Source: Longimicrobiales bacterium
Lineage (GTDB): Bacteria > Gemmatimonadota > Gemmatimonadetes > Longimicrobiales > Gaopeijiaceae
Direction: 5' to 3'
NCBI GenBank assembly: GCA_951813395.1
Contig: OX638356.1
Span: 2,864,501-2,928,500 of the forward strand
DNA length: 64,000 nt
Part shown: positions 21,045 to 22,260 of the stretch, in pieces
Layout: every line of letters starts with the position of its first letter
How positions within the stretch are numbered: position 1 is the first letter of the stretch
Notes under the pieces: model-generated
What the model was told of the DNA's origin: nothing
The model's database searches: none
What the model saw: only the letters and a program-made list of their open reading frames with translations
Translations under genes and position numbers: made by a program

Positions 21045-21719
21045 TCACCCCAGCTCCCAAAACTCCCCGCTCAGCCCCGCGCTCCGCACCGCGGCTTTCT
21101 TCGCGGCGGGCGACAGGGGCCGCCAATCGTCGCTCATCCGCCCCCCGTACCAGCCCCGGCTCAGTTCGCCCAGGGTCCCGATGCCGACAGCGGCGGCCGA
21201 CTCCAGCCCGCGCACAGCCGCCCAGGCCATCGCGTCCCCTTCCGACCGGAAGGCAAGCATGTTGCTTCAGGTGAAGCCGATGTCGTCCCAGAAGCGCCGG
21301 GCCGGAACGGGAAGGAGCACGACCGTGCCGCCGGGCTCGACGCGTCCCCCCGTCACGACGAGATCGATGACCGCTCCCGAGTGCGGACACCTGCTCGATG
21401 TCCGTCCGTCGGTGTCGAGAGTGACGGGTATCGCGATCGCGTCCCAGGCGCAGTTCGCCCAGTACGCCCCGGCCGGTGTTTCGACCCGGTACGGGGTGGG
21501 CACCGCCGAGAAGGGGTGCGCCATCCAGACTTCGCCGTGTTCGTCGAGGGCGAGGACGCAGGCGTCGGCCAGGAAGCGAAGAGCCCGGTGGATCTCGGTG
21601 TCGGCCCCGCCGAAGTCGGTGGCAAGCTCGGCGCGCGAAGGCACCGCTCCGGTGTCCCGGATCCGTCGGTAGAGGTGGCCGCGGAGACGCCACGCGAAGG
21701 CTTCGGTCGGCGCGGTCAT
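21045..21719 (-). CDS. alkylmercury lyase (MerB) homologue, candidate selenoprotein
   Basis: Reads as one 224-residue MerB-family protein if the in-frame TGA at 21267-21269 is selenocysteine (residue 151). The N-terminal winged-helix-like part leads to AYWANCAWDAIAIP, matching the first catalytic Cys and the Asp three residues later (C96/D99 of the plasmid enzyme). The second catalytic Cys (C159 there) aligns with the TGA in RFWDDIGFT-(TGA)-SNMLAFRSE. The last 73 residues continue collinearly to DDWRPLSPAAKKA and GLSGEFWELG. A SECIS-like hairpin starts 13 nt after the TGA. Its ATG overlaps the DoxX gene stop by 4 bases. It may cleave C-Hg bonds or act on other organometal or thiol substrates; the activity is untested. 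Confidence 0.83.
21238..21253 (-). promoter_or_regulatory. candidate bacterial SECIS hairpin (MerB homologue)
   Basis: On the minus strand a perfect 6-bp stem CCTTCC/GGAAGG encloses the tetraloop GGTC. The loop starts after 19 nt from the UGA, begins with two G residues, and its GGUC sequence recalls the SelB-contacting loop of the E. coli fdhF element. Spacing, stem and loop all satisfy the bacterial SECIS model. Confidence 0.75.
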
Positions 21720-22153
21720 GGGTTCGGCGACGCTGCCCCGCCCCGCCGGGCCAGCCACGAGTCCAGGCTCAACCGGTCTTCCTCGAACAGCGCCAGGACG
21801 ACAACCAGCAGCACCACGCGCGGTATCACGTGGGCGTTGAAGGCGTACAGCGGCTCGGCCAGGAGGTGCCCGAACGTGACCAGCATCAGGACGCAACCGA
21901 GCCCGACCGCCGCCGCAAAGCGCTTCCAGCCGGCGAGCATGAGGGCGCCGCCGATGAGCTCCACGTACGGGACCACGACCCCGGTGAACCAGAGCGACCA
22001 TTCGGGCAGCGGGCCCGATGCGTAGGGTTCCACGAAGAGGCTCCTGGCGTGCTCCACCGCGCCGAGCCTGAACACCTTCCAGAATCCGGCGGCGAAGAAG
22101 ACGAGCCCCAGGATCACCCGTGCCACGAACACGGCCCAACACTTCGGTGTCAT
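21716..22153 (-). CDS. DoxX family membrane protein
   Basis: 145-residue inner-membrane protein with four predicted helices: VARVILGLVFFAAGFWKVF, a middle pair around VVPYVELIGGALMLAG and AAAVGLGCVLMLVTFGHLL, and VVLLVVVLALF. The arrangement and the PYVELIGGALMLAG block are DoxX-like; the family is linked to quinone/thiol chemistry in some systems, but most members are uncharacterised. The start at 22153 is supported by GGAGAGG 8 bases upstream. It overlaps the seleno-MerB gene by ATGA, so the two are probably translated together. Confidence 0.85.
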   Translation of the reverse strand: MTPKCWAVFVARVILGLVFFAAGFWKVFRLGAVEHARSLFVEPYASGPLPEWSLWFTGVVVPYVELIGGALMLAGWKRFAAAVGLGCVLMLVTFGHLLAEPLYAFNAHVIPRVVLLVVVLALFEEDRLSLDSWLARRGGAASPNP

Positions 22154-22260
22154 CGAATGTCCTCTCCCCACCGGGGCCCGCCGAAACCTCGCCGGCACCC
22201 GCCCCGTAGTACACGGCTAACGCAGGTGGACAACCTTCACTCCCGACACACGGCGAAGCA

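Follow-up and report, generated by a model that had tools for sequence, protein, structure and literature searches.

The window analysed here, a stretch of 64,000 nucleotides, carries on its minus strand a gene (21719-21045) that starts with ATG at 21719-21717 and contains a single internal TGA, at codon 151 (21269-21267). The frame then continues for 73 more codons to a TGA stop at 21047-21045 and reads MTAPTEAF...NCAWD...FWDDIGFT-U-SNMLAFRSE...FWELG, with U at the internal TGA. Standard gene calling yields two pieces separated at this codon, a 150-residue product and a second ORF of 71 residues. The following features were assigned, with selenocysteine abbreviated as Sec.

21716..22198, minus strand: DoxX/MauE-type membrane protein gene, overlapping the start of the MerB-like gene by ATGA
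21045..21719, minus strand: MerB-like selenoprotein gene, 224 codons including one UGA almost certainly read as Sec, plus the stop
21513..21719, minus strand: N-terminal winged-helix-like region, residues 1-69, also present in MerB (predicted structure and fold comparison)
21144..21512, minus strand: PF03243 catalytic domain, residues 70-192 (profile match and fold)
21441..21452, minus strand: C90-A-W-D93, equivalents of MerB Cys96 and Asp99 (translation and profile alignment)
21267..21269, minus strand: putative Sec codon UGA, residue 151, in the column of MerB Cys159 (frame reading and alignment)
21238..21253, minus strand: bacterial SECIS upper stem-loop CCTTCC-GGTC-GGAAGG, beginning 13 nt past the UGA (comparative evidence)
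21244..21247, minus strand: SECIS apical loop GGUC, with almost invariant Arg and Ser codons

The two overlapping genes are likely co-transcribed. The read-through protein matched PF03243 over residues 70-192 (E 3e-25), with the match running across the TGA, and its domain score of 89.1 bits against a gathering cut-off of 27 places it in the MerB superfamily. An earlier note, made from the sequence alone, had described an in-frame TGA separating parts of 150 and 73 codons, and its coordinates proved exact. It had also located the TGA at the second catalytic cysteine and regarded the first Cys and the Asp as intact; in the profile alignment the TGA indeed shares a column with Cys159 of E. coli MerB and its MerB2 counterpart, and NCAWD aligns with Cys96 and Asp99. 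The residue set of classical MerB is therefore present at two positions, with UGA/Sec at the third.

The AlphaFold model of the protein had a pLDDT of 95.9. Its top solved match was mercury-bound MerB2 (Z 18.0, 188 residues, rmsd 3.2), followed by MerB at a Z of about 15 and an NMR entry at 8.9, and no solved structure outside the MerB family reached Z 5 or above. The predicted structure thus gives the protein a MerB fold.

The family was present in 19 of 59 related genomes, most copies carrying one TGA. Scanning named genomes of bacteria and archaea with an alignment provided 80 relative loci, and TGA occupied the same column in 77 of them, a recurrence that excludes chance. The remaining three comprised two loci with Cys at this column (L102 and L103) and one that is cut short (L040). 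The alternation of Cys and UGA at one column anticipated by the earlier note was accordingly observed, whereas stops or frameshifts at varied positions, which it had named as evidence to the contrary, are not what the relatives show.

According to record titles, the loci belong to Gemmatimonadota, Acidobacteriota, Actinomycetota, Chloroflexota (with Thermomicrobiales), Planctomycetota, Neomarinimicrobiota, Eiseniibacteriota and Verrucomicrobiota, nearly all from metagenome bins. For each of the first five phyla there is a chromosome or one or more contigs longer than 90 kb, and for Neomarinimicrobiota there are two records with contigs of 13-17 kb. Placement is less sure for Eiseniibacteriota, as the single record is a 7-kb contig, and for Verrucomicrobiota, as both records come from one bin without full SelA. 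Two loci titled Gammaproteobacteria (L030 and L037) are probably mislabelled Gemmatimonadota, since the genes on their contigs are nested among that phylum and L037 is seemingly the same genome as G252, which was placed in the taxonomic family of the window's own organism.

Bacterial SECIS elements have a G in the apical loop, located 16-37 nt from the UGA. In the window the loop starts 19 nt past the UGA, with GG first. The 6-bp hairpin with a GGTC loop reported in the earlier note is present at 21253-21238, and its selection was borne out by comparison, whereas the folding energy of the window hairpin alone was unremarkable (z -1.58, single sequence); comparative evidence was therefore used. 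The core CTTCC-GGTC-GGAAG is kept at fixed spacing from the UGA across relatives, with compensatory changes. Among 75 distinct sequences the stem was paired in 94.4% of cells, and pair 19-30 occurred as U-A in 52, U-G in 16 and C-G in 7, broken in none; pair 17-32 was U-A in 36 and C-G in 16. Covariation reached 0.218, compared to 0.137 in shuffles (0/500).

Codon usage in the loop was also biased. The loop Arg codon was CGG or AGG in 77 of 77 cases, compared to 38% elsewhere in the same genes, and the loop Ser codon was TCG at every Ser-bearing row, compared to 37% elsewhere. The full hairpin was kept in none of the 10 Cys relatives checked, most of which have a residue other than the loop Arg. 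This codon bias, together with the absence of the full hairpin from the Cys relatives, indicates that synonymous-site selection acts on the RNA and not on the protein alone, and shows, at the level of aligned sequences, that the hairpin after the UGA is under selection.

The source genome, assembled as one contig, contains SelA, SelB (313.5 bits, cut-off 242), tRNA-Sec (79.7 bits) and SelD (378 bits). All of selA, selB, selC and selD, for which the earlier note had proposed a search, are thus in the genome, and the absence of Sec machinery that would have spoken against Sec was not seen. The SelD (L024, C1:73954-74880) is itself a selenoprotein, reading GAGUACK, which is an internal sign of working Sec decoding in the source organism.

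SelA was present in 49 of 51 UGA carriers among Gemmatimonadota, compared to 241 of 344 other members of the phylum (Fisher p 1.4e-5, uncorrected for relatedness), and the two carriers lacking it are genomes 81-89% complete. In the scan of named genomes, picked to reach beyond the window's genus, 44 of 48 TGA carriers had SelA above the cut-off; the other four, outside the genus, are draft bins. SelA was found in 3 of 8 Gemmatimonadota carriers with Cys at all three catalytic positions; the genome carrying L103, with Cys at the Sec column, had none.

The UGA column, the SECIS and the Sec machinery all favour the Sec-containing MerB-like protein put forward in the earlier note, and on these genomic grounds the UGA of the window gene is almost certainly read as Sec. 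An ordinary stop or decaying pseudogene, leaving the 150-residue product and perhaps the 71-residue second ORF, is hardly credible: standard gene calling yields exactly those two ORFs, but the codon is always UGA, the one fixed column across several phyla rules out decay or frameshift, the C-terminal part is conserved, and both a SECIS and the Sec machinery were found. Reading of UGA as Trp, or general recoding, was rejected on the same SECIS and machinery evidence, as well as on the Cys found at this column in relatives and the UGA with which the gene itself ends.

Every one of the 105 UGA rows, in which some genes appear twice, had C-D-U as its catalytic triad; classical MerBs and L103 had C-D-C, and the 11 nearest Cys relatives had C-C-C. 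In the tree, 82 distinct Sec sequences and their Cys variants formed one supported clade; Sec, C-C-C and L103 sequences together were separated from classical and plasmid MerB with an SH-aLRT of 99. The C-C-C group was a single clade nested among the Sec rows, with weak inner branches and L103 on a long branch, and this topology tentatively suggests that Sec was lost along with Asp. Its members (L005, L102, L110, L116, L117, L119, L120, L122, L128, L139 and L140) read NCAWC, with Cys at the Sec column and Cys replacing the catalytic Asp, and their genomes often lack SelA. Because these nearest Cys relatives swap Asp for Cys too, activity may differ within the clade, and Sec with Asp versus Cys with Cys constitutes a natural test of the role of Sec in the reaction.

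Classical MerB (PF03243; NF009710, NF033555) shares with the window protein the fold, the PF03243 domain, the Cys96 and Asp99 equivalents and the winged-helix N-terminus, but has Cys159 where the window family has Sec. The family also differs in forming a separate branch, in an extra conserved C-terminus (WY...FW) and in having no mer operon, and the window protein scored below the NCBIfam MerB equivalog cut-offs (45.5 vs 193; 43.5 vs 200). MerB2 (PDB 5c17), the best match of the model in structure and of the family profile in sequence, has Ser at the Asp99 position and Cys in place of Sec.

To our knowledge, Sec in a mercury-cleaving fold has one precedent, SaoL of clostridia, reportedly from Haft and Gwadz in 2023. 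The earlier note did not count this family among known selenoproteins, which does not hold for MerB-type proteins at large, as PMC9312934 and PMC13188914 already include SaoL (NF040728), MerB-like and with a C-U motif, among selenoproteins. Both SaoL and the window family are MerB-like and contain Sec. They differ in the residue preceding it (C-U in SaoL, T-U here) and in distribution, clostridia as opposed to other phyla, and the window protein scored 38.3 bits on NF040728 against a cut-off of 140. In a comparison of neighbours across the fetched loci, no Sao gene was recognised close to window-family genes and no neighbour was common to all loci.

In K-62 MerB, the residue matching the end of the NF040728 profile is the Cys that immediately precedes the Cys159 column, so the Sec of SaoL probably occupies the equivalent catalytic place. 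K-62 plasmid MerB (63.8 bits) and Streptomyces plasmid MerBs outscored the window family on the SaoL profile, which weakly hints at separate origins for SaoL and the window family. One Streptomyces plasmid homologue (L141, 3620-4594) carries at its N-terminus a thioredoxin-like region similar to the DF (seleno)protein model NF049942 (53 bits, under the cut-off of 70) and adjoins a heavy-metal-responsive regulator.

In NCBIfam release 20.0 (June 2026), no model covered the family above cut-off among 47 members scanned; matches were to MerB and SaoL models only, the cut-offs above being those shown for the window protein. In a 2026 review, the passages on MerB and mercury name SaoL alone, the SaoL-defining paper and a 2025 follow-up lying outside this comparison. 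The window protein is thus assigned to a new, previously uncurated selenoprotein family in several bacterial phyla, although SaoL is an earlier instance of selenium in a MerB-related protein.

A mercury operon context was sought and none was found at the locus: no mer gene adjoins the MerB-like gene, and the best MerA-like matches in the source genome were below the MerA cut-off. One of these, a flavoprotein (L105, C1:2306100-2307431), lacks the C-terminal vicinal Cys pair. DoxX was rejected as a general partner, being conserved in just 9 fetched loci. In an Acidobacteria-labelled bin (L039), a DoxX-type gene lies upstream of the Sec gene as in the window's genus, and this pair either moved as a unit or was mis-binned. 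With no above-cut-off MerA, no adjoining mer gene and no widely conserved neighbour, the context does not indicate the substrate.

In MerB, Cys96 and Cys159 hold the metal and Asp99 protonates the carbon. Selenolates outperform thiolates as nucleophiles towards soft metals, and mercury is bound more tightly by selenium than by sulphur. Among organomercurial lyase mimics, selones react faster than sulphur analogues (PMC11639659). In the window gene, UGA would be decoded by SelB and tRNA-Sec via the SECIS just downstream. By analogy with the three MerB residues, Sec151 and Cys90 would capture the metal of an organometal substrate, with R-Hg+ the most likely one, and Asp93 would protonate the carbon, releasing R-H. 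The metal would stay on the Se/S pair and then be handed to cell thiols. Cleavage of organomercury or another carbon-metal(loid) bond is, on this analogy, the likeliest function, held with modest confidence, and organomercury in particular is proposed as the substrate only tentatively.

A lyase for a non-mercury organometal (organoarsenic, -tin, -lead or endogenous), an idea raised for the SAO system of clostridia, is a sub-case of this explanation, in which mercury is not essential. It would accord with the lack of MerA above cut-off, with the filing of SaoL as an organometallic lyase and with one mycobacterial plasmid Cys homologue near arsM, but the proposal appears unlikely. Somewhat less improbable, though still doubtful, is a Sec protein without a lyase role, in which Cys90 and Sec151 either act as a thiol-selenol redox centre or bind or carry a metal, possibly in partnership with the DoxX/MauE membrane protein. 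The overlap of that gene and its retention in 9 loci, the missing mer context and a MerB Asp99 mutant described as copper-binding in the title of Wahba 2016 are in line with it; against it, DoxX is missing from most loci, and Asp is retained in every UGA row, though a simple redox pair could do without it.

Cys159 is a condition for keeping merB sequences in a recent survey (PMC12874090), and surveys with this requirement would drop the window family; counts of demethylation potential may therefore be too low in groups such as Gemmatimonadota and Acidobacteriota. The family may possibly represent a widespread, stand-alone, selenium-dependent organomercury-demethylating enzyme of environmental bacteria from several phyla, outside mer operons, which would have been overlooked because annotation ends at the UGA and mercury surveys demand Cys159. 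In this broad, uncurated family of mostly uncultured environmental bacteria, selection appears to have placed selenium at the catalytic position of a mercury-cleaving fold.
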